Assembly: GCF_900114835.1 (NCBI RefSeq)
Contig: NZ_FOUJ01000001.1
Location: forward strand, 310,001-374,000
DNA: 64,000 bases
Source: Methanolobus profundi
GTDB lineage: Archaea; Halobacteriota; Methanosarcinia; Methanosarcinales; Methanosarcinaceae
Direction of reading: 5' to 3'
Every line of letters begins with the position of its first letter. The first letter of the stretch is position 1. This document shows positions 13,073 to 63,743 of the stretch, piece after piece. Below the pieces are notes generated by a model that saw only the letters and a list, made by a program, of their open reading frames with translations, had not been told where the DNA came from and made no database searches. The position numbers and the translations under genes were made by a program.

Positions 13073-13091
13073 GTTGGTATGGGTGAGATCA

Positions 13092-13766: not shown

Positions 13767-13806
13767 AATTCTGAATTATTAGAATTGGTCCCCATCACAT
13801 TAAAAT

Positions 13807-45410: not shown

Positions 45411-46067
45411 ATGTGGGTAGCACCTGAAGATTTTAGTGATGGTACCGGACTTGGATCAGGGAATATTAGTAAATACATTGAACATAAATTCGAAATATTT
45501 TGCTTTATTCTTTATGGTACAGGGGAATCACACAGAATATTGGCTGAATATTTGTACGAGAATGGGGGACATATACATGCAGTCAGTGGCGATAAATGTC
45601 TTATTATTTTATTTGAAAACCCAAAAAACTGGGGTAAATTTTGGGAAAAAAGATGGAAGGATCTCCTTGGTTCAGATTATAATCAAATAAAAGAGGAGTG
45701 GGATAATATTGACATCAGTTATAGGGATGTATCATATGATATCGCTGAAAAATGGGGTATTAGAAGAAGAGAACTGCCATGTATGGTTTTTGTACAAAAC
45801 TTTGAAAGTGAAGACAGCGCAATATTCCAATTTTTGAAAACTGAAAATAATTATGAAAAAGTCTTCGATGAAATATTTGATTGTGTTAACAAAGTCCTTA
45901 ATATGGATATAAGCGAAGATGAATACATTGAAGAATTAAACAAAAAATTTAACCAAATTGAAAGATGGCATTTTACAAAGTCCAAGTGTCATTCTATAAA
46001 GGGTGGAGTTAGTAAAGTAGCATCTTTTATTGGAACAGTTCCCATTGTTAAGATTTTAATTGGTTAA
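45411..46067 (+). CDS. Uncharacterised 218-residue protein beside BREX
   Basis: No family recognised. A+T rich. The N-terminal half looks alpha/beta (KFEIFCFILYGTGESHRILA, HAVSGDKCLIILFENP), the middle is Trp and Asp rich (FWEKRWKDLLGSDYNQIKEE), and the C-terminus ends in SKVASFIGTVPIVKILIG, possibly membrane-associating. It converges on brxL, 98 bases apart. As an orphan gene in a defence island it could be an accessory or immunity gene, but this is inference from position only. Confidence 0.6.
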   Translation: MWVAPEDFSDGTGLGSGNISKYIEHKFEIFCFILYGTGESHRILAEYLYENGGHIHAVSGDKCLIILFENPKNWGKFWEKRWKDLLGSDYNQIKEEWDNIDISYRDVSYDIAEKWGIRRRELPCMVFVQNFESEDSAIFQFLKTENNYEKVFDEIFDCVNKVLNMDISEDEYIEELNKKFNQIERWHFTKSKCHSIKGGVSKVASFIGTVPIVKILIG

Positions 46068-46165: not shown

Positions 46166-48205
46166 TCACCCAAAGAACAAAGCCTTGTGCACAGCATCAA
46201 TCGGATCAGCATAAAACGCCAGCTGGAACTTACTCAACAAATCCGGTGGCACAGTTCCCAATTTAGATGTAGCAGATGCAGGAATCAGAACCTTCTTAGC
46301 ACCAGCATCAAGAGATACTTGCAGAAGGTCAGATAGATTATCTATATTCAAAATGGAACCACCTATGGTCATAGTCCCAATAATTGCTGTTTGTTCCTGA
46401 ACTGGTTTTTCAAGTGCTCCTGAGCAAAGACTGATGAAAGCAGCCAGTGACAGACCATCAGATATCCCTACTCCATAGACATCCTGCAGGCTCATGAAGT
46501 AATCCTTTTCTTTGGTTGAGATCGATTGGCTTATGGACTTGGCATTGGCCTTGAAATAATTGATTGCGGTCTTGACAGATTCCTTTGCTTTGGAGTTAGA
46601 ACTGAGACCGGAAGTTTCGTATTTCCCGGAACCTGAAACAACCTGGAGTTCACTCTTGTATATGCCTATCTTTCCTGAGTCTGTTGCAGCTACTCCATAG
46701 ACTTGACCTGGTTTTGTAAGACCTGGTGGTATTATCTTGTTTCCTCCGCTTTCAGGGACATTGACAAAGTGCTCTTCCATGTCATCGTTATCGATGTAGG
46801 AGAAATTCACATCAAAGAATTCCATACCACCAATCTTTTTCAACTGCTCTTTGACCCTTCGTCTTCCTACAAGTGCATATTCGAGTATTTCCTGAGCATC
46901 TTCTTTTGAGATATTCTCATCGGGATAGATGAGTTTTGCAAGCCCAGAGAATGTCTTTTTCACAGCAATTACGTCTCTCTGGTTGAGATTATTTCCGAAA
47001 CTGAAGTACTTGAATATTACATCACTGTAGGAGCGTTTTCTCATTTCTCTCAGGAATTCTGCCAAGTAATCTACGATGAAACCGTATTTGTCAGTGAAAT
47101 GTTCTGGTCTGAATTTTGGAACTTCCCATCCAGGTAAATAGTAATGTATCCTGTCGAAGAATGCACTGTCATTGTTCATTGCTTCAGGGAATGGTGAGAA
47201 TAAATGGGAGGTCTTGAGCAATGATGATATGCTCTGATTAACGTTACCTACGAAGGCAATGGATGCATTGGCGTTGATCTGGTCCTTGCCTCTTGCAAAG
47301 GAGCCAGAGGCCATAAAGTCTTTCAGTATCTGGATACCGTCTTTATCCTTGAAGCGGATTCCTGCTACCTCGTCAAAGGCTACAACATCCCAGAGTCCCA
47401 CTAAACCTACCTGACGTGTACCCATGTTGTAGAAGAGATTTGCAACGGTTGTCTGTCCACCGGATATCAGTATAGAATTCGGAGAGATCTCTTTGTAGAT
47501 ATGGGATTTTCCAGTACTGCGTGGACCCAGTTCACAGAGATTATAGTTGTTCTCAATAAGAGGGACCATACGCTCCAACAGATGCCATTTTGCTGAGTTC
47601 TCCAGTTGTGTTGGCTCCATACCTATGGATCTGAGAAGAACATCTATCCATTCGTCCTTGGTGAAGTTCTTACGTTGCTCAATAACTTCAGAGATATTGA
47701 TGTTTGGGATCTGGATGGGTTTTAGGCTTGATATGACAAATGGGGAAGGTACCATTTCTGGACTGTATTCCATTTTGATAATGCACCAGATTCCACCGCC
47801 CAGAAGCTTATCGTATTTTGTTACGTATTCCGGATCGATCTCCACTTTTGCTAGTCCGAGGTTGGAGAAGAGTGCCTCGTAGATATCCCTTTTTTCGTTA
47901 AGCTTGACAGTGATCTTATCGATGATTGTGTAGTAACCAGTTTCTCTTATCTTTGATTTTATCTTCTCGGCTTCATCGGGACGCACATAGTTGTCTGACA
48001 GGATGCTTTTGACTTTCTTGACACCCTGCTGTATAAGGTCCTCATCATTGGTGGCACAGTTAGCACCTAGCAGGTATTCCAGAACATAGACAGGGACATT
48101 ATGGCCTACTTTTACCAGTTTTGTCAGATCTTTCCTGACAACTCTTCCCTGGAAGTGCAAGTTCAGTTTCTCATCAGTTCCAATGTCTGCTTCTTCTGCC
48201 AGCAT
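46166..48205 (-). CDS. brxL: BREX AAA+/Lon-like protein BrxL
   Basis: 679 residues, the expected size. The N-terminal domain (LNLHFQGRVVRKDLTKLVKV at about 13-32, with LEYLLGANC) is typical of BrxL; the AAA+ motor has Walker A GPRSTGKSHIYKEISP (about 242-257) and Walker B LWDVVAFDEVAG. The C-terminal domain resembles Lon protease (DVYGVGISDGLSLAAFISLC, AGAKKVLIPASATSKLG). The Ser-like position is kept, but where Lon has its catalytic Lys (GGLKEK) this reads IDNLSDL, so peptidase activity is doubtful. BrxL forms ring assemblies on DNA and is needed for restriction in type 1 BREX. Last gene of the locus, 20 bases after pglZ. Confidence 0.93.
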   Translation of the reverse strand: MLAEEADIGTDEKLNLHFQGRVVRKDLTKLVKVGHNVPVYVLEYLLGANCATNDEDLIQQGVKKVKSILSDNYVRPDEAEKIKSKIRETGYYTIIDKITVKLNEKRDIYEALFSNLGLAKVEIDPEYVTKYDKLLGGGIWCIIKMEYSPEMVPSPFVISSLKPIQIPNINISEVIEQRKNFTKDEWIDVLLRSIGMEPTQLENSAKWHLLERMVPLIENNYNLCELGPRSTGKSHIYKEISPNSILISGGQTTVANLFYNMGTRQVGLVGLWDVVAFDEVAGIRFKDKDGIQILKDFMASGSFARGKDQINANASIAFVGNVNQSISSLLKTSHLFSPFPEAMNNDSAFFDRIHYYLPGWEVPKFRPEHFTDKYGFIVDYLAEFLREMRKRSYSDVIFKYFSFGNNLNQRDVIAVKKTFSGLAKLIYPDENISKEDAQEILEYALVGRRRVKEQLKKIGGMEFFDVNFSYIDNDDMEEHFVNVPESGGNKIIPPGLTKPGQVYGVAATDSGKIGIYKSELQVVSGSGKYETSGLSSNSKAKESVKTAINYFKANAKSISQSISTKEKDYFMSLQDVYGVGISDGLSLAAFISLCSGALEKPVQEQTAIIGTMTIGGSILNIDNLSDLLQVSLDAGAKKVLIPASATSKLGTVPPDLLSKFQLAFYADPIDAVHKALFFG

Positions 48206-48225: not shown

Positions 48226-50844
48226 TCAAAAATCATCCACAATTAACAGGTCTACTTCGAAAGGCATAGGGTCTATGATCTCCCTGTCAATATCGGTTGG
48301 CTCTTCATCTATCAATCTTACATAATATACCTTATTCTCAATCTCACCGGTCAATGTGAGAGTTACTTTGTACTGCCGGTCTGCAGCTTCATCTGACGTG
48401 CTTTCAGCAATTACAAGCTTTTCATCGCTCACCTTGAACTCATCGCCGTCCATGTCCCACAGTGCTATCCTGAACCTTCTTGGAAGCAACTTATCAGTGA
48501 CCTTCTCGGTCTGAAGAATATTAATTGAGAATGGGCTGCTTGTAATCTTCCTGCTTGCATTGATCACGGCTAAGCCTACTTTTCCGTGTTTTATACCTTT
48601 TCTTTCGAGATCAGCAGTCTTTTGGTATGAATACTTGAGCACTGGCACAACTATTTCCTGAGGAGCAGCTCCTCCGTGGACGAAGTTCTTGTTGGCTCCT
48701 TGCATCTTGAATCTAAGGTCAGCCTGGGGAACATAGGCAAACAACTCATTTTGGGATGGTGATTTTATAACATAGTTCATATTGAACTTATGTACGTTCA
48801 TAAGATCGATATCTTCTTCACTCAAAATAAAACGCTTACTTGAAGCAACTACTTTTTCCTTGTCAAAACTACTTGTTTCTACTTTATCATAGCTCTCCAA
48901 TGAATCTCTCTGATATAGGAACCCATGATCAGCTGTTACTATCAGGTTATTAATGATCTGGAAATTAGTTAGTTTTTCAATGATCATCTTCACATCTGAA
49001 ATGGTCTCTTCAGCTGCGTTAAAGACACTGTGTTCTGATGCAGAGTGATCACCTGTGGCATCTATTTTGTCATGATAGATATAGAAGAGTCTTATACCTT
49101 TGAACTTTTCACGGGCTTCATTTTGTTTTAAGTTCAGCAACTCTTCGTAATTTATGGCAATGGAATCAGGTGTCATTTTCCCCAGTATCTTACCACGGTT
49201 ATCTGTTCCTTCAGTGCTAATACTATCTGCAAAGACACTCTGATTCCTGTATTCCAGCTTTTCATGCGGGAGCAGGCTGGCCATTCCCAGTTTAGTATAA
49301 GATGGCAAGGAACTAGTCATATACTTGAGTTCAAGTGTACCCCTGGTGTCCTTGTTAAGGACGTCCTGAAGCTCTGCAGCGACCTCATAGCGCATGGCAT
49401 CGGAGATTATGACTGCTATCTTATCCTTGTCGTTACGGTTGATAATGTTCTTTATGTAGAGCTTGTAGAACTCGTCCTGCCGATCGATGAGTTCAATGTT
49501 CCATCGTCCGTTCATTTCAGTAGAGATGAGTTCACTCCACCGTGTGAGCAATTTGTCAAGAAGCCTGTTATTGTAGAGTTTCTCGATTCCTTCTCTTGTT
49601 GATTTCAGGTCTTCTTTTTCCCTGTCCTTATCATGATAGTAGTAGAACTTACGGTAGTAATAGTCCATCAGATAATAACGTTCAGTGTAGTTCCTGAAGA
49701 AGCGGTTGAGATTCTGGTCGCTGAGATTCTCTTCGTTGAACTCCTTTGCAAACTGGTACAGTCTTACAGCATATTCCAGAGCATTGTAGATGTTTTCGAA
49801 GTCAGGATACCAATGTTTTGTTTTCCTGCTGCCTATCCATTCAAGATAGCCGTCAAAGTCCTCTTTGTCGTTGTCCAGCTCATCAACTATCTTGTGGATG
49901 ATGTGCTTATCAAACAGAGCCAGAGATTCAGCTTCTATATAGTCAATGACATCATATTTTTGGACTTCAGTGTTAAGGTACTTTTTCAACTTGTCATCAC
50001 TTTCAAGCAGCATCCCACAATACTCATCAAAGATTCCTGAGTCTTTGGAGTTGTCCATCCAGCCTCTGATGAATATCTCACATTCGTTACTGAGGGAATT
50101 AGTGTAAGCCTTGTACTTCTTGAGGTTGATGTTCGTGTTCCTTGAGATATGAGTGATAAGAAAACTCAGGAAGAGTTTCTTCAATGTAGGTTCTTCGGAG
50201 CTATATCCAAAGTATCTGTTCACCATGTCCCAAAATTCTTCCACCAACTCGAATCTGACTATTTCCTCCCATACAGTGTTGGTGTTCTCGTCCAATGAGT
50301 TTATGAGTATCTTCCTGATAATCTCCTTAAGATCTGTAGTAGAGGAGCTGGAAAGCACCCCCAGGAACCCGAGTACGAACTCTTCTTTCCTCCAGTCGCT
50401 CTGGTACATCCTCTTAAGAGGTTCCACCCTTTTCTTGCTTGAAAAGAACTGCTGATGTTTTTCAAGGAAACCATCCAGGTCATAACCTTCAACCCCAAAC
50501 TCACTCTTGATATCAGATATCCTGCTGTTCTCGAACCTTCCAGAATACAACTGTATGTCCAGTAGCCAGTTCAGTGTCGGGTCTCTTTCAGCCTCAGCTG
50601 AATAAATTAGATAACTGGACTCTGTATCATCCTTCTCCAGCATTTTCTTGGTTGCAAAGAAGTTATTGTCCAGCACATGTAGCTTAATTCCCTTTTCTCC
50701 CAGAGCCTCGCGTATATATGATAGACCTTCTTCATCTGCCGTTGGGTCCTTATCATACCAGAAGACAATCTTCCTTTTCTCGAACTCGCCAAGTGTATCG
50801 AATTTCTTAAGTATGCTCTGAGTGGTCTTTTCGGGGTTTAACAT
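48226..50844 (-). CDS. pglZ: BREX alkaline-phosphatase-fold protein PglZ
   Basis: 872 residues, type A PglZ. N-terminal KRKIVFWYDKDPTADEEGLS (about 18-37) is the family start; the phosphatase core holds IAVIISDAMRYEVAAELQDV (about 464-483), SSLPSYTKLGMASLLPHE and LIVTADHGFLYQRD (about 632-645) with Asp and His residues typical of alkaline-phosphatase-fold metal sites. Essential for phage restriction and host DNA methylation in characterised BREX systems. The start lies 48 bases after rloB. Confidence 0.92.
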   Translation of the reverse strand: MLNPEKTTQSILKKFDTLGEFEKRKIVFWYDKDPTADEEGLSYIREALGEKGIKLHVLDNNFFATKKMLEKDDTESSYLIYSAEAERDPTLNWLLDIQLYSGRFENSRISDIKSEFGVEGYDLDGFLEKHQQFFSSKKRVEPLKRMYQSDWRKEEFVLGFLGVLSSSSTTDLKEIIRKILINSLDENTNTVWEEIVRFELVEEFWDMVNRYFGYSSEEPTLKKLFLSFLITHISRNTNINLKKYKAYTNSLSNECEIFIRGWMDNSKDSGIFDEYCGMLLESDDKLKKYLNTEVQKYDVIDYIEAESLALFDKHIIHKIVDELDNDKEDFDGYLEWIGSRKTKHWYPDFENIYNALEYAVRLYQFAKEFNEENLSDQNLNRFFRNYTERYYLMDYYYRKFYYYHDKDREKEDLKSTREGIEKLYNNRLLDKLLTRWSELISTEMNGRWNIELIDRQDEFYKLYIKNIINRNDKDKIAVIISDAMRYEVAAELQDVLNKDTRGTLELKYMTSSLPSYTKLGMASLLPHEKLEYRNQSVFADSISTEGTDNRGKILGKMTPDSIAINYEELLNLKQNEAREKFKGIRLFYIYHDKIDATGDHSASEHSVFNAAEETISDVKMIIEKLTNFQIINNLIVTADHGFLYQRDSLESYDKVETSSFDKEKVVASSKRFILSEEDIDLMNVHKFNMNYVIKSPSQNELFAYVPQADLRFKMQGANKNFVHGGAAPQEIVVPVLKYSYQKTADLERKGIKHGKVGLAVINASRKITSSPFSINILQTEKVTDKLLPRRFRIALWDMDGDEFKVSDEKLVIAESTSDEAADRQYKVTLTLTGEIENKVYYVRLIDEEPTDIDREIIDPMPFEVDLLIVDDF

Positions 50845-50892: not shown

Positions 50893-51492
50893 TTATTTAT
50901 TGAAGTGTCTTATTACCTCAATTATTCTGTAAACTTGTGTTGATGGATTGCTTTGAGTACTATTTATATCAGTTCCATTATCAAGGTGGAGTTTTTCCAG
51001 TTTTTTAGCGTTTTTAACTGCTGTATCTGTTAGAGGCTCAAGAGTTTGAAAGTAATCTCTGCTCTTACTGTAATCTACAATCTGTCTTTTTAGAAGTTCT
51101 ATCAAACCTTCGTTTTGAAGTGATGCTTCTGTATAGCTAAAATGAAGAAGGAACCAGAGCTCAAAGGAGGGGTTTGAGAGACACATATTGATGGATCTTT
51201 CGGCATCCCTGTATGCTTTTGAGATATTGGCATCTGTGTTCTCGTCGCAATCAAAGACGCACCAGATGGAATCTCCACCATTGATATCCAAATCCGGTAC
51301 CTTCTTTTTGGCAAATTTAACAATGCTTCCTACATCTTTACGGCTTGATGGGATAGGAATGACATCGACGTTGTTCTGTGGGGTCCTATAATTTTCAAAG
51401 TACATTGGTTCGGTCTTTTCACCTTCACAGATGACGAGCATTTTATTCCTTGTAGGTCTTTGACCATGTTTTCTCCGGCTATAGTCTCGCAT
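50893..51492 (-). CDS. RloB/AbiLii-like TOPRIM protein
   Basis: 199 residues. LVICEGEKTEPMYFENYRTP (about 19-38), the acidic pair in WCVFDCDENTDANI (about 82-95) and CLSNPSFELWFLLHFSYTEA (about 114-133) define the RloB family, a TOPRIM-like nuclease fold. With the AAA ATPase immediately upstream (13-base gap) it forms a two-gene set like AbiLi/AbiLii, an abortive-infection-type defence unit. Placed inside the BREX operon between pglX and pglZ. Confidence 0.85.
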   Translation of the reverse strand: MRDYSRRKHGQRPTRNKMLVICEGEKTEPMYFENYRTPQNNVDVIPIPSSRKDVGSIVKFAKKKVPDLDINGGDSIWCVFDCDENTDANISKAYRDAERSINMCLSNPSFELWFLLHFSYTEASLQNEGLIELLKRQIVDYSKSRDYFQTLEPLTDTAVKNAKKLEKLHLDNGTDINSTQSNPSTQVYRIIEVIRHFNK

Positions 51493-51505
51493 GTCAATAA
51501 CCCTC

Positions 51506-52768
51506 TTAGGATGAGATGAATGGAAGTGCTCCGTATCTTCCCATCAGGTATCCTTTCAGGATATTCTGATCTTTGCGAACCTGGAATTCCAGAAGTGAAT
51601 AAAGATCGGTGTTCCCTGCATCCGTATCTTTTTCTGTGAACCATATCTGGTCTCTTCTAAAGAGCTCATCGTTAAGCAGGTTGGTGTTGTGAGTTGTTAT
51701 TATTAACTGGGCATTGTTCTTATTGTAACTCTTATCATGGAAGAGTTTTACCAGATGTTCACTAAGCATTGGATGCAGCTTTAGTTCCAGCTCATCTACA
51801 AACAAGACCTGCCCTTTATTCAGTGCATTGAGCCAGGGTCCTATTAGAGTGAAGAATCTCCTTGTACCATCGGATTCTTCGGTATTGAAATCAAATGAGA
51901 TACTGTGTTCCTTGCCATCTTTATCTTTTGCAAGGTGGAATGTGTTGATGTCTATCTTTTGCAACTTCCCACTGGCTTTCTCAAAGCTTCGTGGTAGATG
52001 GTTCATTATTTCAACAGGAAGTTCTGTTGGGTCTATATCTTCTATACTTGCAATAATATCCTTTAGACCAAGGTCTGCTCTTTCAAGTGATCTCAGGATG
52101 GCCTTTTTCGAGTCATCATCCTGATTGAGCATTCTGATTGTGTATTCACCCTGCTCTGATAATGTCCTTGCACCAATTACTCTTAGGTCTTCCCTGAACC
52201 ATTTGAAGGCTTCCAGGGTCTTATCGTAATTCTGTTGTGCTGAGTTGGAGAGATAAAGGACATTACTCAGAGTTCTCTTTGAGATATCATTCTGAACTCT
52301 TTTATCAATCGTGAATTTGAATTCAGTAGTATTCCTTCTTTCAAAGACAAGTGCTTCCCTGTTGTTAGGATAATAATACAGTTCTTCATCGATTATCTTT
52401 GTCCTGTCATATGATACAGCATACCTGTACCTGATGTTGTTCTTGATAAAAAACACACTGAACCTGCTGGGCTTTGACATACATTCCGGTGTCAGCTTAA
52501 ACGGTTCGAATGGAAGCAAATCTCCGTCCTGATTCTTGACCGATGTCATCACCAGATTTTGCAGGTTGAACATAGCTAAAAGAACATTGCTCTTTCCAGA
52601 TGCATTAGCCCCATAAATGACAGCACTTTTCACCAGCCTGTCATTCTTCTTCAAGGCATCCGGCTCGATCAGATTCTCCTCAAGCACCCTATCAGATGAT
52701 GCCAGTAAACTAAAAGTGATCTCATCCCTTATTGAGCGAAAGTTCTCAGCTTTGAATTCAATTAACAT
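51506..52768 (-). CDS. RloA/AbiLi-like AAA ATPase (OLD/SMC-type)
   Basis: 420 residues. MLIEFKAENFRSIRDEITFS is the usual start of AAA_15/AAA_21 ATPases; Walker A is IYGANASGKSNVLLAM (about 52-67), the signature region is FNTEESDGTRRFFTLIGPWL (about 292-311), Walker B QVLFVDELELKLHP (about 318-331) and the His switch IITTHNTNLL. It pairs with the RloB-like nuclease. Preceded by 146 non-coding bases after the second pglX gene, which may hold its own promoter (a TATA-like TTTAAATATAATC reads on the minus strand near 52843-52855). Confidence 0.87.
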   Translation of the reverse strand: MLIEFKAENFRSIRDEITFSLLASSDRVLEENLIEPDALKKNDRLVKSAVIYGANASGKSNVLLAMFNLQNLVMTSVKNQDGDLLPFEPFKLTPECMSKPSRFSVFFIKNNIRYRYAVSYDRTKIIDEELYYYPNNREALVFERRNTTEFKFTIDKRVQNDISKRTLSNVLYLSNSAQQNYDKTLEAFKWFREDLRVIGARTLSEQGEYTIRMLNQDDDSKKAILRSLERADLGLKDIIASIEDIDPTELPVEIMNHLPRSFEKASGKLQKIDINTFHLAKDKDGKEHSISFDFNTEESDGTRRFFTLIGPWLNALNKGQVLFVDELELKLHPMLSEHLVKLFHDKSYNKNNAQLIITTHNTNLLNDELFRRDQIWFTEKDTDAGNTDLYSLLEFQVRKDQNILKGYLMGRYGALPFISS

Positions 52769-52914: not shown

Positions 52915-54627
52915 TCATATCTTCTCCACCAATCCCTCAAACCTCTCATAATTAACCTTCACCCCATCATCCAGATCGATCTCAATATACGCATCAGCCT
53001 TATTCTTCAGCACTTCATCATAAGCCATGAGTTCCTCGATCATTTTCCCCAACCTCGCCTTCTCTTGAGCATCCTTCCCAATATCCGACTGTATCATCTC
53101 TCTCTTAGCATCCAACTTCCCTTCAAGCTCCAGCAAGTAATCCGTCCTCATTACTGCAAGAGTGTCAGTTCGGTATCTGTGCATGTAAATGAGCGCATTG
53201 AATGCCTTTCCCTTCCCTGAACTGAACATCCAGTAGATTGGCCTTTTCTTGTACATCTTCAGATGATCTTTGTAGAACGATTTCAGGAAATAGTCCCTTA
53301 TCACAACCTCCGAGGACTTCTTACCGTTGCCACCCAGAGCCTCTGCAATGAAATCCAGATTCTCCGAAAGCGTATCCTCTCCAAAGGTCACTTTGAGAAA
53401 CTCCTTGAACCTGCCAACAATGTCATCCTCGAAGTATTCATCCTCAAGTATGGGTATGATGTTATCCGCATCAGGTATGAAGCTAGGTTCCGGCACTTGT
53501 TCCAGATAATCTCCTATCTTTTCACCCTGGTTTGCAAGCACCAGTCCCGGCTTATCCAGCGAATAACGTCCGAACATGCAGCCAACAGAATAGGAAATGA
53601 ACTCTTTTATCGTATCCGTAAGCAGCAATGCTTCCAGTTCTTCCTCGCTCCTGTCTCCATTATAGCGATAATATGGATTGCATGTTAGCGTAATCTCTGA
53701 AAGTGGCATATCTGGTGTAAGCTCGTCCTGCAGGCCGTAGGCTTCTAGGAAAATATGGTTGTTCTCTTCCTCCAGTCTCTGCATCTCCAGTGTCATTTCT
53801 TTCCAGTGGGTGCGGAGTTTGGTGTAGGTTTCGCGGAGGGTTGACGTGTAGTATTCGGGTTGGAGAAGTGGAAGAGTTGTGAAATTCCAAGAGGTTTCGT
53901 AGGAATCCCAATCAAACTTGGACAGTTCAATAATATCTTCTACACTTGTTGAAACCTCTGGAAGCAAAACAGGCATAGATGCCATATTGCCTGGTTGAAT
54001 GTTTAAAGTGGGATTGATAACACTCATATAAAAAGGCCCGACTTTGCTACATAAGTAACCAAGAATAGTATACATGTTAGAATAGTTATGAATCTGACAC
54101 AGTCCTGAAGCATCATCAAACAAAAATCCACTTGGAGAATATCGGAAATATGGAGTTCCTGAAGTTATTTTCGACCATACTAAAGCAGGTGAAAATATGT
54201 ACTCAAGATTGTGGTTAGTTGAATTACCTTTCCACCCAAGTTCTTCCATGTGAAGAAGCCTGTAACCATCATCTTCCCAATCAACAACACTTATGTGATT
54301 CCCATACCACTGTCTGAATTCTCCCCCTTTTTGATAGGGAAACCATCTTTTTTCAGATTTGATTGAATCTTCACGAGATTTACAGTCAAATCCTATTCTA
54401 CTAACTGCAACCTCTGACCAAGAACGAACAAAATAATCATTATCTCTGGTGCACATTCCTTTACGGGGAGTTGCTATCTTGTCAAGTGGTGTAGTCTTGT
54501 CTAAAATACTAAATGCTTCTTCTGAAAGCCAATAAGCAATCGGACTGCCGGGAATCTTCTTGAAATCAGCCGCAGAGGCGCGGTAGAAGTTGGGGACGGG
54601 GGTGGTTGATGAAGTGTTATTGGTCAT
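52915..54627 (-). CDS. pglX: C-terminal half of BREX methyltransferase PglX (specificity and C-terminal region)
   Basis: 570 residues that continue where the gene at 56146-58005 stops. The opening [20 protein letters not shown] (about 13-32) is the conserved PglX segment directly after the catalytic domain; then come a target-recognition-like region (about 45-260, with [20 protein letters not shown] and [20 protein letters not shown]) and the helical C-terminal part (YYIYFVGRMFG-like [37 protein letters not shown]). It has no SAM motif of its own. Together the two parts total 1189 residues, close to intact PglX of about 1200. Start ATG 54627 overlaps the nested AlbA_2 gene by 11 bases, so it is likely translated by coupling. 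Read as a functional S-like subunit rather than debris, because no stop or frameshift is present. Confidence 0.85.
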
Positions 54628-56149
54628 GTTTTGCTACCTCTTTAGTTAGGAAATTCCTGCCTTTGGGTGTCAGGCGGTATTTTTGGGTCGGGCTTTTTGG
54701 AGAATCAGGTTGTGTCATTTCAACAAGGCCGGCCTGAATGGCGGGCTGCAGATAATCATAAACAAATGTAGGGCGACTACTTATACCGATATATTGCATT
54801 GCTTCTCTTCTTCCTAATGACTTATCTTCAAGGCAGATGACCAAAGATGTTACTTGTTCGGTTACATGTTCGGTTACATGTTCGGTTACATGTTCGGTTA
54901 CATGTTCGGTTACATGTTCGGTTACATGTTCGGTTACTTGTTCACCTGACCAGCGTGCGTTTTCTTCTTTACCAACATGACTTTCTGTGGATACCCCAAT
55001 GGATTCTTCAAGATAGACAATGAACCTGACCCTCATTCCAATTTCAATGATCTCCGGTTGTGGAAGCCCTAGAATTTCCGCTTCCTTGAACATGCGGCGA
55101 ACACCACTGCCCCATTGCTCTATCAGGTCAAGCTCCCTGAATACACGCGCTATCACATGATTGCGTATCTTGGATGCACCCTGCAGCATATCCTCAATCG
55201 TCAGGCCCGGCAGCAGAATGCCCGGGTTTTCTATCTCGATGCGGTCGTCAAAAAAAGCAACTCTTATAGGGGCACCCCTTTGTGAATAATCCGAATGCAC
55301 AACTGCATTGATCACCGCCTCACGCAGGATCGTCAATGGGATGCTCCAGACATCCCTACGTCTCAATTCCGAAAAATCCGCACCCCTCATCGCATGTTTC
55401 TTGAGAAACTCCATTACCCTCTCAACAGCCACGGGGAGATGTTCATGAATATCTATATGATCTAAAATATCCGCCTTATCCTTGCCTACAAATCTTCCGC
55501 ACTGTATCCATGCATCCGGGAATATCATCTCCCGGTCCTTACCGAACAGCAGCATTCCGCCAACAGTAGGAACCAGATGTCCCTGATCTTCGGCAACAAG
55601 CCGCATAGATACCAGATCCTTTTCCACCAGCTTCCTGTGCCTTTCAAAACAAACCTTCGCAGCGTCAAAGTCCAGGTCATCTACAGTTCTGTCTACAAGA
55701 ACCTGTTCATCAAAAGAAATACCCGTAACTGTACGCTTCAGCTCTGCAATAAGTTCCCTGTCAGCCTTCCTGTTAGTAGAACCCAGCCGTACATAAACAC
55801 CTTCATCAGGTCCCTCCTTTCGCACCCAGTGAGGACGCTGACCGCTCGGATACACCTCTACAATCAGCAAAGTCTTATTCTCAACAGATATAAGCTCCAC
55901 ATTAGGCACCAGACGTGGAGCAATATTATCAGCAATGAGGCTGCAAAGCCGCTCTTCTTCATCAAGAGGATTCTCAACACCACGAACCTCTCTACTGTCA
56001 TCCTCAACCCCTATCAGCAAACGCCCTCCGGCAGTATTGGCAAACGCCACAAGCGTCTTGATAATGTTCTTTGGCGAGGATATATCACGCTTGAACTCAA
56101 GCGTCTTTCCTTCTTGCATGGAAATGAGTTGAGATGCTGGTAGGGTCAT
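54617..56149 (-). CDS. AlbA_2/Schlafen-type DNA-binding protein nested in pglX
   Basis: 510 residues. Residues about 8-135 form the AlbA_2/Schlafen domain ([60 protein letters not shown]). Residues about 235-380 resemble the RecG-like ATPase C-terminal (HATPase_c_4) domain: [38 protein letters not shown] and [20 protein letters not shown] repeat (about 402-433) leads to a winged helix at the C-terminus ([20 protein letters not shown]). Such proteins are often regulators or accessory defence factors. ATG 56149 overlaps the stop of the methyltransferase half by 4 bases and its end overlaps the specificity half by 11, so the three form a tightly coupled set. Confidence 0.87.
54849..54944 (-). 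repeat. 12-bp coding minisatellite, eight units
   Basis: Eight head-to-tail units of GTTAC(A/T)TGTTC(G/A) encode Glu-(Gln/Glu/His)-Val-Thr: one EQVT, six EHVT, one EQVT. The six middle units are identical at the DNA level, so copy number is likely to vary by slippage without shifting the frame, changing the linker length between the ATPase-like domain and the winged helix. Confidence 0.9.
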
Positions 56150-58005
56150 CGAACCTCCATACCATAAGCATCAGAGTTTCTTACCTGCATAACCACATCA
56201 CGTAGCATTCCATCCTTCTCTGCTTCACTGTTACCATCCACAAGTCGGATATAAGCTCCCTTATAATCCGGATGCTGGTCATTCTCAAGGACAAAAGCAG
56301 TGGTGGAAACAACCTCACCACCGATACTGTCAAAAGCCCGTGGTCCGAGATGTGCCATAGACAGTATTGTATGCTCATCCAGAATGCTCTCACGGAGTTT
56401 CTCAAAGGATGAAAGGAACATCCAGCTCTGCATAGTTATCATCGCAACCATTCCTTTCTTCATTGCAAGGTCAAGATTGCGGTCAATGAACATAGCAAAG
56501 AAATCAGATTTACTGTTGGGATAATTGTCCTTGGCAAATGTCTTAAGCCTGTCATTCATTCCCTTACCACCCATATAAGGTGGGTTTGCAACTACCACAT
56601 GGTATTTTGGACTTAGATAATCTGCCTGCTTCAGCACCTGCAGAACCTTTTGATGAGTATTTAAGATGGAAAGATTACCAGCAAGGTTCTTTGATCTGAG
56701 CAAGTTCAAAATATCTGTAACATCCTCTACCTTAGGGATGATAAGAGAACCGAAATTATCAGCCTCATCGAACTGGAGCAATGTAGCACGAATGTCGTTT
56801 GTGAACAACTCACGTCCGACAGCATCAGTATAAGCATTAAGTTCACCCTCCTCAAAAGAAACACTCTCCAGTGCACATATATTAGGCTGTACAGGGTTCT
56901 GGAAGAACTTGCGGTTCTTTCTCCTGGCCTTCATGGCAAGCGCAAAAGCCGCCAGCTCTTTGGCACGCTCGTCTATCTCGATGCCATAGAGATTATGGGT
57001 CAGTATCATCTCCGGGATCTCTGAATGGTCATAGCCCTCTTCCTCATAGATTGCATACAACAGGTCAAATGCATAGACCAGCATATGTCCTGAACCGCAT
57101 GCAGGGTCACACACCTTGATTTCCTCTGGGGAATTGACCTTCAGGAAATCCGTTTCAGGTTCCTCTGGCTTAATGTAATAATCCATTTGTTCATATAACC
57201 TGGAACTGGGTCTGTTAAGCATCCATAAGCGACCCAGTGAATTCTCCACAAGATAACGAACGATCCAGTGAGGAGTGAACAACTGGGTCGCTGCAGGGAT
57301 ATTCTCCTTACTGATCTTCACATTCTTTTTCAGCTTCTTGAAGACATCATCCTTTTTGGGAGCAATATAATACTGGTATATCCATCCGATGATCTCTACT
57401 TCCCTCCAGTGATCCTCAGGGATCATCTCATTGATATCTTTTACAATGGAATCAATATGTAACAAATTCTCAGGGAATAGGAGTTCGGTATAGTCCTCGA
57501 TCTTCTCGAACATGAAAGGCATGGTCTTGTTCAGGTAATTGCACAGTCTCAGTATCAAGTACTTGTACAATTCCTCATCCTTATTATCTGCCTTCATATC
57601 AAGCACAAGATTAGAATCAAGGTCCAAAAAATCCAGCTCAATAGCATGTGTAATAATTCCAGGCTCGGTCCTTTCAGCATCATCTGCAGTGAACACCTTT
57701 ACCGGAATATAATCGTTTACCTCCATGAACTTCAGGGCAGCAAAACGGTTGAACCATGTGTAAGTGACCTCGTCCATCACCTGCTCATAGCCCTTGTGAT
57801 TAACCTCTTTGACCAGACGTTCACGCTGGTCTTTGATCTTCCTGTTGAAGACCTTACCGCCAATAACAATGGAATCCGAGTGTTCAGAGTCAACTGGGAG
57901 TGTTTCTTTTGGATGGATGCCATAGAACGCAGCCCTCGCCTTCACTTCATGCAGGAGCTTTTCACGCACAGTATCTGAGAATTTAATGATTTTTGCATTG
58001 TCCAT
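56146..58005 (-). CDS. pglX: N-terminal half of BREX methyltransferase PglX (catalytic region)
   Basis: 619 residues. The N-terminus ARAAFYGIHPKETLPVDSEH and VTYTWFNRFAALKFMEVNDY (about 84-103) are PglX hallmarks. The adenine methyltransferase has motif I VCDPACGSGHMLVYAFDLLY (about 303-322), the X segment LTHNLYGIEIDERAKELAAF, and catalytic motif IV VVANPPYMGGKGMN (about 475-488). It ends shortly after IRLVDGNSEAEKDGMLRDVV, precisely where intact PglX continues into FYRASAxDF; the remainder is the gene at 52915-54627. It starts 2 bases after the brxC stop codon. Provides the N6-adenine methylation that marks host DNA in BREX. Confidence 0.9.
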   Translation of the reverse strand: MDNAKIIKFSDTVREKLLHEVKARAAFYGIHPKETLPVDSEHSDSIVIGGKVFNRKIKDQRERLVKEVNHKGYEQVMDEVTYTWFNRFAALKFMEVNDYIPVKVFTADDAERTEPGIITHAIELDFLDLDSNLVLDMKADNKDEELYKYLILRLCNYLNKTMPFMFEKIEDYTELLFPENLLHIDSIVKDINEMIPEDHWREVEIIGWIYQYYIAPKKDDVFKKLKKNVKISKENIPAATQLFTPHWIVRYLVENSLGRLWMLNRPSSRLYEQMDYYIKPEEPETDFLKVNSPEEIKVCDPACGSGHMLVYAFDLLYAIYEEEGYDHSEIPEMILTHNLYGIEIDERAKELAAFALAMKARRKNRKFFQNPVQPNICALESVSFEEGELNAYTDAVGRELFTNDIRATLLQFDEADNFGSLIIPKVEDVTDILNLLRSKNLAGNLSILNTHQKVLQVLKQADYLSPKYHVVVANPPYMGGKGMNDRLKTFAKDNYPNSKSDFFAMFIDRNLDLAMKKGMVAMITMQSWMFLSSFEKLRESILDEHTILSMAHLGPRAFDSIGGEVVSTTAFVLENDQHPDYKGAYIRLVDGNSEAEKDGMLRDVVMQVRNSDAYGMEVR

Positions 58006-58007
58006 GA

Positions 58008-61000
58008 TCAGAACAACCTGATATCGTTTTCTTCTAGTAACTTAAGCAGAGATGCACGCAGTTCTTTGAGGTATTTGTCAAGTTCCTCTTCAGATTTGAT
58101 CGTCTCTCTTGTTTTGAAAACGGAAGTGTCTTTTACAATTTTAGTAGATCTTACGGGAATTGGAACCTCATCATGATCAGTTTCTTTTTCTCTAAGAGTC
58201 TGCAACTGATTGTTTATTCTGCTGTAAGCCTCACTGTGAAGAGCATCTAGGGTGGTTGCTTGTGCCTGCACGAACACACAATCCTCAGCTTCTGAGATAC
58301 GTGTCTTGAGGTCATGGAATGGTTTCAGAACAGAATCCATGAAGTCCTGGGTAAGTACTGCATGCGTCCCCATCTCTATTTCCAGTTCCGAAGTAATCGT
58401 ATCTATCTGCTTAAAAGTCTCTTCCTTAAGTTCAGATAGGATTTCTGAAAGGGCATTTTCAATCTCATTTTCCAAAGGCGGTAGTGATTTAATATCTGAA
58501 TACGGCTCCTCTGAATCGAGAATTTTTTCAATTATCTGCACTTTGGACTTGATCTCTTCATCCATAAATTGCAGGTCTCGTTTGAAAACATCAAGCTTCC
58601 TAAGCACTCTTCTGAATATCTCTACCTTATTGCCTCCAAAGAATGCAGTAACAGGCTCAACCTCATCACGTAAGCGGATCAGTTCATCCTTTTCTTCGGC
58701 AATATTCTGAAGGAAAGCAGAAGGATCAGTAATGTTCAAGACAGCATTTAGGTAGGAAGCATATTCCTTAATTTTCTCTCTTCCAGGGAACCTTGGCTCC
58801 TCTTTATATCTGCCTTCAATTTGTTCGAGTGCTCTGTACTCGCTAGTGAATAATGAATGTGTAAACTCAAAAAGATCATTTTCCTTGTCAGGGATATTCA
58901 TCTTTTCAAAAACTTCTCTCAAAATCGCTCTAACAGCCTTGATCACTTCAATATTTGTCTTTTCCCTGATTTCCAGAACAAGCTTATCTGCTGAATCCTT
59001 CCTTATCAGGTATCTTACAATTTCCTCAGCAGTCTCTTTCTTAAGGACCAAATATGTTTTCTGGAATCTTAGCTTGATCTCATCTCGTGCAAACAAAGTA
59101 GCTACAAGACCGGATATAGTCATTTCACTCCAGCCATAGGGTTTGCGTTTAAACCTGTCTTTGATTTCCTGAAGTACTACAACATCGTTCTTTTGATGTT
59201 TTATGTTCAGATAATCCAGTACTTCCCTAAGTGCAAGCTGGTTCGTCTCTGAAGTCTCAGCACCAAACTTTTCCAGATCATCTGCTTTAAGTATCCTCAG
59301 GATGTCGCTGTCACTTCCAATGTTGTTGGTCACATAGTTGGCTTTCTTGTAGACGTTTTCAAATAGAAGATCCAGGCCTTCCTTAATCCTTTCTTTAGGA
59401 TTCTTCTTTTCAATACTTGTGACCTCTTTACCATCAACGAATATCCTTGCCTCTGAAATGCCCTCTTCCATTGACTTCTTAGATGCTTCCAGAAGTTTGT
59501 CTGCATCGATTCTTTTTCCACTATGGATATCTTTTATCTCTCCAACATTCGTATTGGAAGTGTTTTGGTTAAGGTACTTGTTGATCTTCAGGTAATTACG
59601 TATCTGATCAACAAACTCCACATCATTTGGGAATACAAAAAGAAGAGTATCAGTAGAATCAATATTGCTCAGATTCTCTCCACTTAAAGACCTCTGTCCA
59701 CTTCCTCTTAGCACATCATCTGAAAGAGGTGTCAGGAACTTAACAGTAAGATCTGCACCGGATGCAGAATCTACTTTATCATCGATAGATTTGTTGAATT
59801 TGTAATCCTTGTATTTAGAAGGACAAACATCATTGAAAATGTGCTTTGAAATATCATCAAGGATCTTGTGTTTCTCAATAACAACATTCTTTATTTCCCG
59901 ATTGATCTCCTGTTCTTCGTTAGTAAGGAAATAGTACTTGTCCCCTGATTTTTGGATAAGTGTCTGTGTCTCAAGACGTTGAAGTGAAGCAGCAATTTTT
60001 TCCTTCAATTTCCTTTTATCTTCATCAACATGTGATATCGAAAGTACAACAAGATTATCTAAGCTTGGCTGCAGTACATTCACATGCCTTATCATGAAAA
60101 GAATTTTCAAGATATTACAGTCTTCCTCTTCAAGGAAATCATTGTCCATAGCCTGTGCAATTGTACGTTTAATAATTGGGTCCAGGAAGCTTTCTATAGT
60201 GCTATAGAAAATATGGAAAGGTACAAGTGTCCCAAGTTCACTATCTGCGTACTTCTCACTAGCTTCCTTGAAAGCACTGAGCATGGAACGCTCACCCTTT
60301 GCAAGATGTTTTCCAGTAAAGCCAGTCAATCTGATTTTATCAAAGACCTTTTGCAGCACAAAGAACTGATAAGGAACAAAAGGATAGACAGCAACAAAAT
60401 CCTCTTCTCCCTTGTAGAGTTTCATCTCAGCTCCGCCAGGAGAGAATGTCAGAAGATTTTTCAATATTGTCTTTTTGTCAGAATAATATGAGGTCAAAGA
60501 CTCTTCATATACTTTGTTTTTAGCTAAAATCCTTTTTTTGATAACTTCATCTACATTGGCACTTGAAAGACTTAAGCGAGTATTAAATCGTCCCTGGATT
60601 TTAGAGAAATCGTCTTTAACTTGATTCTTGGTGATACTATCAATGTCTGCCTGAGACGTGACAGCAATCCACGCTTTTCCTGCAAGTTTAGTTCCCAATT
60701 CCTCAACAATTGTCTGAAGATTAAGCATTAGATTATTGTTTTCGCCAATGTACTGGCCAATCTCATCAATTAGGAATATTACCTGATGATCTTTGCCTTT
60801 AGATTCACAGTATTTCTTTACCTTATCGGCAAATTTTTCATTACTAAAATGATAACTGCTACCATCGCTTTCAAATAATCTGATAAGAGATTCTTTGCTC
60901 TGGTATTCGCAATTAACAAGAGCTTCAATTATGTCATCCTGCTCAAAAGCATAAGTATCACGTTTCTCTTCCCACGAAGCACCGTTTATCCTTCTGAACT

Positions 61001-61562
61001 CATCCTTGAACTTTTCATAAAGACCCTTGTCTGTCAGATCTTCTTCCATTTCAGCAATCCAGAGCACATCGCCAAAAAACCCCCTCTTTTCATTGAATAC
61101 CCTCATAAGGATATTCACAATAAGCTCATCGCCATGGCCTAGGGTGTTCGCTTTAGAATCAATATTGAAAAGGATTACATCTTTGGTACCATAAGTTACT
61201 GCTTTTTCAATAGTAGTGAATAACAGAGGATCCTCTATTTTCTCTTCGAAAAACTCAAGTGCAGATTTGTCCCTAACAACTTTATTTTCCAGAAGATAGG
61301 ACAACATTTTGATGAAATGAGATTTACCCGATCCAAAAAAACCGGATATCCATACACCTATTTTATCTGTTGGATTCTCTATGGTACTAGAATAGTTATC
61401 AAAGAAAAGGTTAAGATGCTTCAGTGATTCTCTGGTGATGACATATTCATCAAGTTCAGTATACACATTCTGTTCATCATCCTGATCAACCTTGATGACA
61501 CCGTTGATTTCTCTTTTGATATCCTTTAAAAAGAGATTCTGAATTATCATTTCATTAGTCAT
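58008..61562 (-). CDS. brxC: BREX P-loop ATPase BrxC/PglY
   Basis: 1184 residues, normal length. Walker A VWISGFFGSGKSHFIKMLSY (about 68-87), Walker B QVIFLIDEIGQYIGENNNLM (about 258-277) and the sensor region WIAVTSQADIDSITKNQVKD (about 294-313) are intact; the last 350 residues contain long charged coiled coils (LRDEVEPVTAF onward). BrxC is the large ATPase of the BREX complex. It follows brxB by 12 bases. Confidence 0.93.
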   Translation of the reverse strand: MTNEMIIQNLFLKDIKREINGVIKVDQDDEQNVYTELDEYVITRESLKHLNLFFDNYSSTIENPTDKIGVWISGFFGSGKSHFIKMLSYLLENKVVRDKSALEFFEEKIEDPLLFTTIEKAVTYGTKDVILFNIDSKANTLGHGDELIVNILMRVFNEKRGFFGDVLWIAEMEEDLTDKGLYEKFKDEFRRINGASWEEKRDTYAFEQDDIIEALVNCEYQSKESLIRLFESDGSSYHFSNEKFADKVKKYCESKGKDHQVIFLIDEIGQYIGENNNLMLNLQTIVEELGTKLAGKAWIAVTSQADIDSITKNQVKDDFSKIQGRFNTRLSLSSANVDEVIKKRILAKNKVYEESLTSYYSDKKTILKNLLTFSPGGAEMKLYKGEEDFVAVYPFVPYQFFVLQKVFDKIRLTGFTGKHLAKGERSMLSAFKEASEKYADSELGTLVPFHIFYSTIESFLDPIIKRTIAQAMDNDFLEEEDCNILKILFMIRHVNVLQPSLDNLVVLSISHVDEDKRKLKEKIAASLQRLETQTLIQKSGDKYYFLTNEEQEINREIKNVVIEKHKILDDISKHIFNDVCPSKYKDYKFNKSIDDKVDSASGADLTVKFLTPLSDDVLRGSGQRSLSGENLSNIDSTDTLLFVFPNDVEFVDQIRNYLKINKYLNQNTSNTNVGEIKDIHSGKRIDADKLLEASKKSMEEGISEARIFVDGKEVTSIEKKNPKERIKEGLDLLFENVYKKANYVTNNIGSDSDILRILKADDLEKFGAETSETNQLALREVLDYLNIKHQKNDVVVLQEIKDRFKRKPYGWSEMTISGLVATLFARDEIKLRFQKTYLVLKKETAEEIVRYLIRKDSADKLVLEIREKTNIEVIKAVRAILREVFEKMNIPDKENDLFEFTHSLFTSEYRALEQIEGRYKEEPRFPGREKIKEYASYLNAVLNITDPSAFLQNIAEEKDELIRLRDEVEPVTAFFGGNKVEIFRRVLRKLDVFKRDLQFMDEEIKSKVQIIEKILDSEEPYSDIKSLPPLENEIENALSEILSELKEETFKQIDTITSELEIEMGTHAVLTQDFMDSVLKPFHDLKTRISEAEDCVFVQAQATTLDALHSEAYSRINNQLQTLREKETDHDEVPIPVRSTKIVKDTSVFKTRETIKSEEELDKYLKELRASLLKLLEENDIRLF

Positions 61563-61574
61563 TTACTCAAACCC

Positions 61575-62162
61575 TTAACTTTGAGAAACATTATCTGTAT
61601 TAATAAGCCTGAAAGCACGATAGTAATTCGCATCCCGGAATTTCCCGAACAGGCTAAGATCAAAACCACTATACTTTCCAGGATAGAAGGTGACAAGCGG
61701 TATATTACCAAGAAGTGGTTGCAAATTATTTAGAACACTGTGAGAGCGGACCATTGGCCAGGCTTTACCCACGCCCGTTAAAAAGATCAGCTGGAAACCA
61801 TCATTCTCATTCATTTTTTGCTGGATGGCGTTTTTCAAAATGTCTGGTTTCAACATAAGCTTTAGTTTTTTGAGTAGCTCATCGGAGCCTTTATTTCCCT
61901 CAAAAGAACCGATCTTCTCTGCAGATATTTTCTTTTCTAGTATCTCTAGACACACATCATAAAGATCGATCTCAAGAACTTGAATTGATTTCTTTTCTAA
62001 AGCTGGTATTACCTTCGTGATCGTGTCTCGTACAAGCAATTCTTTTTCAGGAGGATAGTCAAATATCCAAAAAGGAACTTCGTTACCAAGACCCCTTGCT
62101 TTTAAGAAATCCTCTTTTTGGAGTTCTTCTTTTAGAAGTTCGAGTCTTTCTTCAAGTTTCAT
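61575..62162 (-). CDS. brxB: BREX protein BrxB (DUF1788)
   Basis: About 195 residues from ATG 62162, which gives the family's usual start (MKLEERLELLKEELQKEDFL); the frame stays open to ATG 62222 and TTG 62240. GLGNEVPFWIFDYPPEKELL (about 24-43), IFLTGVGKAWPMVRSHSVLN (about 126-145) and PLVTFYPGKYSG are the DUF1788 signatures. BrxB is a core component of type 1 BREX; it is normally preceded by brxA, which is absent here. Confidence 0.9.
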   Translation of the reverse strand: MKLEERLELLKEELQKEDFLKARGLGNEVPFWIFDYPPEKELLVRDTITKVIPALEKKSIQVLEIDLYDVCLEILEKKISAEKIGSFEGNKGSDELLKKLKLMLKPDILKNAIQQKMNENDGFQLIFLTGVGKAWPMVRSHSVLNNLQPLLGNIPLVTFYPGKYSGFDLSLFGKFRDANYYRAFRLINTDNVSQS

Positions 62163-62240
62163 AGTTGCCTGCTTATTATCTCTAAAATTATTTAAAGATG
62201 GTCTTTTTATTATATTGGCCATATTTGTTTTGACTTTCAA

Positions 62241-62444
62241 TTTATTCCGACGTTTTACTTTCTTTAGTTGTTGGCTAGTCCTTCAAAACCTGAATCATTG
62301 AATAAACAATCTAAGTCATTTTCTTTTTAAAATAGAAAATGTACATCAAGTATATATAATATTTTAGCATGTATGCTTCTAAAATTATTTGTTTTTCTTT
62401 TATTAGTACAGAATTCCAGATTTGTCAATTGAATAAAGTGGATT
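62241..62444. promoter_or_regulatory. Divergent promoter region between brxB and mcrC
   Basis: About 200 bases where brxA would be expected. On the plus strand AAGTATATATAATATT (62348-62362) is a strong TATA candidate; if used, the mcrC leader is about 60 bases. The minus-strand promoter may use the same AT-rich block. An inverted TTTTC...GAAAA repeat is present (about 62318-62339). No ORF of useful size lies here. Confidence 0.45.
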
Positions 62445-63743
62445 ATGATTTCCAACTCCCCAATAACTCTATTCGAATACGAATCCCTCTTCTACTCCGA
62501 TCCCAGACTCAGTTCCTACTCTAATCATCTCGACCTCATCGACCAACTCAACCAGTCAAACGGTGAACTCCTGACCTTGCACCGCAACAGTCTACAGGCA
62601 AAGCAGTATGTCGGGTTGATTCAGGTCAGGGATCTTTCTATAGAGATACTGCCAAAGATGTACAGGGATGGATTAACAGAGGCTGCACAGGTGGAGCATG
62701 CTCAGAGGAATCTGTTGTATCTGCTGCATTACTGTTATGACATACCGATCTATGAGAGTGAGATCGCTCATATGGAGTCCCGGAAGGCAAACTGGTTCGA
62801 GATACTGACCTTCATGTTCACCAGGACGCTTCAGGATATATTCAAGAAAGGGGCTCAGAAGCAGTATATCTCAGTAGAGGAGAATTTGCCTTACTTTAAG
62901 GGAAAGTGTTTGATACAGAAACATATCGCAGTCAATAGTTTCAAGAAACACCTGTTCTATGTCAACTATGATGAGTTCAGTCCGGATATTCCATTGAACC
63001 AGATGCTCAAGTTTGTTGTCAATAAGTTAAAGCTCAGGTCACAGGACCTTGAGAACAGAAGGAATCTGCATATTCTGGATCAGGAGATGGACGATATATC
63101 ATTGGTATCAAATCCTGCTCCATTGCTTGATAAGGTCATCTTCACGAGGTTGAATGAGAATTATAGGCCGGTATTCAATCTGGCAAAGATGTTCATAGAA
63201 GGGAATGTCGTTGAAACATCGGTCGGTTCTACAGGTGCGTTTGCATTCACTTTTGATATGAATCTGCTATTTGAGCGTTTTATTGCTCGTTTTCTTAAAG
63301 AACATCAGGATTCGATTCTACCTGAACACCTTCAGAACTGTGGAATCTATTCACAGGCCGGTGGTAGAGAGCTTGCCAGGAATTTAAAGGATAGTAAAGT
63401 GTTCTGGTTAAGACCTGATATTCTTCTTGAAGAAAGAGGGCAGGCAAAATTGATCATCGATACAAAGTACAAGAAGCTGAAAAAAGAGGACAGAAAACTT
63501 GGAATTTCTATTTCAGACATGTATCAGATGGCTGCCTATGCAAGCAGATACTGTTGTTCCAATATCATTTTACTTTACCCTCGTACTGCAGGAGGAAATG
63601 AATCAATCCTTGAGGAATATACACTACAAGGAACAGGTCACAAGGTTAGGATAGCAACCGTGGACCTGCGAGTTGATCTGACTAATCCAATTAACAAAAT
63701 GAAACTTATAAACGATCTGAAAGGGATACTAGGAGAGGTTTAA
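62445..63743 (+). CDS. mcrC: McrC-family restriction nuclease subunit
   Basis: 432 residues. N-terminal SLQAKQYVGLIQVRDLSIEI (about 49-68, with the LPKMY that follows) and YDIPIYESEIAHMESRKANW, and the C-terminal nuclease core VFWLRPDILLEERGQAKLII-DTKYKKL (about 320-346) with Asp and Asp-x-Lys residues of PD-(D/E)XK enzymes, mark McrC. It cleaves DNA with an McrB-type GTPase, usually at methylated or otherwise modified cytosines. The partner gene begins 2 bases after its stop, an order (C before B) reversed from classic mcrBC. Confidence 0.9.
   Translation: MISNSPITLFEYESLFYSDPRLSSYSNHLDLIDQLNQSNGELLTLHRNSLQAKQYVGLIQVRDLSIEILPKMYRDGLTEAAQVEHAQRNLLYLLHYCYDIPIYESEIAHMESRKANWFEILTFMFTRTLQDIFKKGAQKQYISVEENLPYFKGKCLIQKHIAVNSFKKHLFYVNYDEFSPDIPLNQMLKFVVNKLKLRSQDLENRRNLHILDQEMDDISLVSNPAPLLDKVIFTRLNENYRPVFNLAKMFIEGNVVETSVGSTGAFAFTFDMNLLFERFIARFLKEHQDSILPEHLQNCGIYSQAGGRELARNLKDSKVFWLRPDILLEERGQAKLIIDTKYKKLKKEDRKLGISISDMYQMAAYASRYCCSNIILLYPRTAGGNESILEEYTLQGTGHKVRIATVDLRVDLTNPINKMKLINDLKGILGEV

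Follow-up and report, generated by a model that had tools for sequence, protein, structure and literature searches.

The type 1 BREX operon of the archaeon Methanolobus profundi carries pglX as two separate reading frames, with an AlbA_2/Schlafen gene between them. We consider it likely that the two frames encode a PglX (BrxX) of two polypeptides, cut at the hinge of the protein, and that auxiliary defence genes nest interchangeably in the gap between them. The operon lies on the minus strand of the window, the 64,000-nucleotide stretch of contig NZ_FOUJ01000001.1 analysed here, and runs brxB, brxC, pglX-N, the AlbA_2 gene, pglX-C, an AbiLi-like gene, a RloB/AbiLii-like gene, pglZ and brxL (Table 1).

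A type 1 BREX locus with a divided pglX

The core genes of type 1 BREX are found together in a single locus (brxB, brxC, pglX, a type A pglZ and brxL), but in place of one PglX of about 1200 residues there are ORFs of 619 and 570 residues. Because all the other core genes and every PglX domain are present, we file the locus as a variant of type 1 BREX. No brxA gene lies between brxB and the divergent ORF at 62445 (62240-62445), and PF08849, the brxA family, found no match in the own genome but none in the control genomes either.

Several neighbouring genes deserve mention. The divergent gene that comes after the brxB end of the operon (62445-63743) is McrC-like, and a 218-aa ORF without a Pfam match (45411-46067) adjoins brxL. 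An AbiLi/RloB(AbiLii)-like pair (50893-52768) is embedded between pglX-C and pglZ, and the bacterial BREX loci L011, L031, L055, L067 and L079 have such pairs in the same interval, from pglX to pglZ.

Table 1. Genes, domains and junctions of the divided BREX operon, in coordinates of the window.
Feature	Position	Strand	Description
brxB	61575..62240	-	domain/profile matches
brxC	58008..61562	-	domain/profile matches
pglX-N	56146..58005	-	619 aa; N-terminal helical domain and N6-adenine methyltransferase; NPPY motif at residues 474-477
Junction 1	56146..56160	-	GGAGG in the last pglX-N codons, then 4-base ATGA stop/start overlap (56146-56149)
Nested gene	54617..56149	-	510 aa; SLFN_AlbA_2 13-129, HATPase_c_4 292-376, 4-residue repeat linker, Fic-like_C wHTH 431-494
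Junction 2	54617..54645	-	GAGGT in the 3' end of the nested gene, 11-base overlap (54617-54627), pglX-C start
pglX-C	52915..54627	-	570 aa; target-recognition domain (TRD), spacer, PglX C-terminal domain (CTD)
Hypervariable TRD	53893..54522	-	residues 36-245 of pglX-C
AbiLi-like AAA/OLD-type ATPase	51506..52768	-	additional embedded defence gene
RloB/AbiLii-like partner	50893..51492	-	domain/profile matches
pglZ (type A)	48226..50844	-	domain/profile matches
brxL	46166..48205	-	domain/profile matches

Position of the cut in PglX

A first-pass annotation of the sequence had placed the cut at the boundary between the catalytic and specificity parts of PglX, and both profile coverage and alignment to BrxX at the hinge bear this out. 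The NCBIfam model BREX_1_MTaseX (1210 positions) is matched from 2 to 649 by pglX-N and from 653 to 1209 by pglX-C, so that PglX is complete except for a few hinge residues. Two half-length PglX models of PADLOC, PDLC02525 (607 positions) and PDLC02516 (593 positions), match the halves almost end to end, and in the alignment with E. coli BrxX pglX-N corresponds to residues 63-636 and pglX-C to residues 644-1191. The flexible hinge loops of E. coli BrxX are residues 638-675, and the protein has two jaws, NTD+MTD and TRD+CTD (PMC11842806); in Salmonella PglX the hinge is at 654-659 (PMC11341690). Placed by alignment on the solved PglX structures, the two halves abut at the hinge between the methyltransferase and TRD domains.

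In a comparison of hinge sequences, split N halves terminate in MLKEAIQ or a variant of this tail, and in split C halves a short leader not present in fused forms precedes (Y/F)(F/Y). AlphaFold models of pglX-C and of the AlbA_2 protein were poor (pLDDT 60 and 62, respectively) and unfit for a fold search. The C-terminal domain of Salmonella PglX could not be expressed alone (Went et al., PMC11341690), and for this reason the C-terminal part of PglX may need a partner.

Co-inheritance of the halves and exchange of the TRD

All three genes have dN/dS values well below one, about 0.07-0.09 for pglX-N, 0.10-0.20 for the AlbA_2 gene and 0.20-0.28 for pglX-C, where the higher value is attributable to the TRD. 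Compared with relatives from the same family, pglX-C is 20-60% identical per 50-residue block over residues 50-250 and 78-98% identical over residues 250-570. The identity of the N half is closely correlated with that of the CTD (r = 0.93 over 435 split pairs and 0.89 over 630 fused pairs, the pairs not being mutually independent), and TRD identity is uncorrelated with that of the N half (about 0) or of the CTD, in split and fused sets alike. The TRD of the window is 66% identical to that of a split PglX from Acidovorax, whose N half and CTD are 60% identical, and 40% identical to that of a locus from the same genus, L002, whose N half and CTD are 87% and 89% identical. These patterns indicate that TRD exchange goes on in split systems as it does in fused ones, and that the two halves are co-inherited.

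The layout had earlier been likened to the separate M and S subunits of type I enzymes. Its methyltransferase and recognition parts are indeed separate, but judged from these identities it is the TRD within the C half that is exchanged as the specificity unit, and not the whole C half in the manner of HsdS. The whole C half was considered as an exchanged specificity subunit and rejected: the C-half tree seemed discordant with the N tree, dissection traced the discord to the TRD, and grouping the C halves of Chlorobiaceae in a single clade was not rejected by an AU test.

We also considered whether the halves might no longer belong to one enzyme, the N half working with some other specificity protein or the C half persisting as a lone DNA-binding regulator. 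Separate polypeptides could in principle take new partners, but nothing specific to this effect was found, the N/CTD correlation across split systems argues against it, and the own genome holds no second PglX N half; we regard this reading as very improbable. The lock-step evolution of the N half and the CTD, together with purifying selection and TRD swapping of the kind that occurs in fused genes, makes a working two-subunit PglX likely. That the two halves form one enzyme thus has strong, though indirect, evidence behind it.

The nested AlbA_2/Schlafen gene

The nested protein belongs to the AlbA_2 or bacterial Schlafen group, with SLFN_AlbA_2, HATPase_c_4 and a C-terminal wHTH, and is homologous to SLFN11 and to 2KYY. 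Among its relatives E18 is invariant, D50 is nearly invariant, and E13 is replaced by K in L002. By motif spacing E13, E18 and D50 are the presumed SLFN active-site carboxylates, E13 being the first, and its replacement in L002 makes nuclease activity of the nested protein uncertain.

Two parts of the protein are variable. A 12-bp tandem repeat (54849-54943; 7.9 copies, 97% match) encodes the TEHV repeat linker, and relatives have other 4-residue repeats at the same place (GEQV, SPTQ, LESR, VEAQ); with a unit of 4 residues or 12 bp, length changes preserve the frame. Among relatives in the same position, the C-terminal wHTH is about 14-54% identical per 50 residues, against about 75-90% for the N-terminal part, a pattern suggestive of exchange at a sensor end, and the wHTH end of the window's protein resembles that of Methanohalophilus (L080).

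The first-pass annotation cast this protein as a third member, produced at a fixed ratio to both PglX halves. Such an obligatory subunit would fit the overlaps of 4 and 11 bases between the three minus-strand genes, with which the ORF coordinates agree, and the three-gene order itself, which was to be sought in other genomes and is shared by Methanolobus, Methanococcoides and several bacteria. We nonetheless find it very improbable, on several grounds. In L113, a single-contig genome of the same genus as the window, both halves are intact and lie 13 bases apart, and the AlbA_2 gene is absent. The leader of its pglX-C (GAGGTAGCAAAACATGACCAATAA) corresponds to the 3' end of the AlbA_2 gene in the window, which implies that an arrangement like the window's lost this gene and retained both halves. 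Elsewhere the slot is filled by unrelated genes. AlbA_2 relatives 70-79% identical adjoin a fused pglX in other Methanosarcinaceae (L080, L124 and, as a fragment, L122), an AlbA_2 gene adjoins a fused pglX in L185 as well, a 51% identical relative sits between brxC and a fused pglX on an Azotobacter plasmid, and other close relatives sit outside BREX. The history of the gene also differs from that of the halves, dS between L111 and L112 being 0.20 for AlbA_2 as against 0.94 for the N half and 0.81 for the C half. By these measures the AlbA_2 gene is exchanged independently of the pglX halves, and the nested gene is best described as replaceable cargo, dispensable to them.

Translation signals accompany the junctions. 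In the window pglX-C has its own GAGGT eight bases ahead of the ATG. The first nested gene overlaps the stop codon of the N half by 4 bases in 22 of 31 split loci, irrespective of which gene it is, and a strong SD word occurs in the last 24 bases of 20 of 43 split N tails, as against 2 of 22 fused hinges. Translational coupling across the junctions, as first proposed from the overlaps, is thus plausible, and the SD-like words fit it too; the fixed ratio proposed with it is not implied, because each downstream gene has an SD-like word of its own.

Other occupants of the gap

Slot families were scanned on cluster representatives and then extended by blastp clustering. Between the halves of other split loci we found HEC-02A/B genes (12 loci in the A cluster and 8 in the B cluster), the RT_UG5-nitrilase reverse transcriptase (DRT; 8 loci), SIR2 (5 loci), Shedu (SduA; 3 loci) and HerA, along with AlbA_2 genes and genes without a family match.

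Some slots hold further genes of note. Related proteins of 116-120 aa with no assigned family are encoded between the halves in two Chlorobiaceae loci (L061, 4714-5076, and L071, 2379-2729), in L071 as the only gene in the slot. The slot of L073 encodes a 751-aa protein (12657-14912), adjoining an AlbA_2 gene, that has no Pfam or PADLOC match and is a candidate defence gene. Read by eye, the slot of L118 (9200-11500) appears to contain a DUF1016-like gene, a fragment resembling RhuM and a remnant of the AlbA C-terminus.

Recurrence and origin of the split

Recurrence was assessed in the 80 best GTDB loci for pglX-N. Both halves are separate in 31 of these, cut within the same segment of about 7 residues; in 5 more (L012, L024, L040, L042 and L049) the N half ends at the same point and the contig runs out, and the remainder mostly have a fused pglX. 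The earlier remark that no BREX system built this way was known does not hold for genomes, and PADLOC already has models for each half. Within Halobacteriota, the genus of the window and two other groups have split-length frames, and pglX is fused in other genera of the family. Split-length N halves make up 1 of 9 matches in a Burkholderiales sample and 5 of 17, clearly, in a Pseudomonadaceae sample, where two further frames, of 656 and 677 aa, are unclear. Among 261 plasmid records found with pglX-C, the best 25 reach no more than about 49% identity and mostly carry the plain annotation pglX. The split is clustered, and is not general to type 1 BREX.

In the N-half tree, well-supported branches require at least 4 changes between split and fused states, and an AU test rejected a single clade of all split N halves (p = 6e-6), and with it a single origin of the split without later change. 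Either pglX would have undergone fission repeatedly, or the split junction would have spread by recombination into fused genes.

Could pglX instead have been broken by an insertion, its ORFs being decaying remnants? In a cyanobacterium, pairs of truncated pglX genes that together make a full gene have been treated as truncated, and truncated or paired partial genes of this sort interpreted as loss of function (PMC9716671). Some relatives are in fact broken elsewhere in pglX (L021, L054, L121 and L130), at scattered positions, as expected of decay. At the hinge, in contrast, the cut point is identical in many phyla, the junctions carry start and SD signals, TRD diversification is ongoing with the N half and CTD in lock-step, and the frames are intact with dN/dS far below one in both halves, in agreement with the first impression that none of the genes is decaying. 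We find decay very improbable. Nor is the cut due to chance or faulty assembly, since it is the same in dozens of independent genomes, the single-contig assemblies G061, G257, G203 and G223 among them; we found no support for a sequencing or assembly artefact and give that idea almost no credence.

Proposed mechanism and implications

PglX is cut at the flexible hinge between a methyltransferase jaw and a DNA-recognition jaw, and we suggest that the two halves pair non-covalently, with BrxB, BrxC and PglZ, closing on the BREX site as fused BrxX would. Such pairing would keep methylation and defence. The nested AlbA_2/Schlafen protein would be made from the same mRNA, its start being within reach of ribosomes finishing pglX-N (GGAGG and ATGA), and would serve as a separate second line of defence rather than as a methylase subunit. 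It would most likely be a Schlafen-type nuclease that senses infection or the loss of BREX. Somewhat more cautiously, we favour the broader proposal that the PglX hinge is a site of convergent fission and nesting, at which an obligate two-subunit PglX would have arisen repeatedly across archaea and bacteria, with Schlafen, HEC-02, DRT, SIR2, HerA and Shedu modules swapped in the gap and translated in step with the methylase. If this is true, the docked modules are perhaps inherited with BREX and active when BREX is overcome.

Through the split systems nature has repeatedly tested which parts of PglX need covalent joining, and the hinge cut site should be a permissive place for engineering M- and S-like subunits. 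Pairs of pglX genes annotated as 'truncated' are often likely to be working systems, and may be scored as broken. The slot is also a place to seek new defence genes, candidates being the 116-120 aa genes of L061 and L071 and the 751-aa gene of L073.

Comparison with known systems

The divided enzyme shares all of its domains, the NPPY motif and the order brxB-brxC-pglX-pglZ-brxL with type 1 BREX PglX/BrxX, as known from E. coli HS (9EWZ) and Salmonella (8C45); it differs in being two hinge-separated polypeptides with a gene inside, and in having no brxA gene adjoining brxB. The halves themselves are already in databases, as PDLC02525 and PDLC02516, labelled only 'PglX'; in the literature searched we found neither the split nor nested cassettes described. 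In the same literature we found no paper on a recurrent functional hinge split of PglX or on the hinge as a cassette slot, and no description of AlbA_2 with pglX.

PglX-C resembles HsdS in fold (PMC11341690), and as in HsdM/HsdS the methyltransferase and recognition polypeptides are separate. Unlike in that pair, exchange affects the TRD alone, the remainder of the C half being kept together with its own N half, and there is no HsdR. The locus is not a type I restriction-modification (HsdMSR) system, its N half being PglX/Eco57I-like and its partners those of BREX.

According to a 2026 survey (PMC12839542), at least 1017 taxa have proteins composed of a Schlafen RNase, a minimal histidine kinase and a wHTH in the vicinity of BREX or BREX-related cores, and the survey suggests that these act as backup RNases. 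The nested gene has the same kind of domain set; a search of the survey's main text turned up neither a split BrxX nor a disrupted one.

The closest parallels to the nesting are DarTG2 (PMC12255303) and TgvAB (PMC11411939), defence genes located between hsdS and hsdR in type I restriction-modification operons. In both cases, as here, foreign defence genes lie inside another defence operon, but theirs sit between naturally separate subunit genes, whereas in the BREX loci the cut goes through the host gene, at a hinge between domains. The embedding of defences in defence operons is thus already known; what appears to be new, judging from the literature searched, is a host gene, pglX, cut at its hinge as a recurrent nesting slot.
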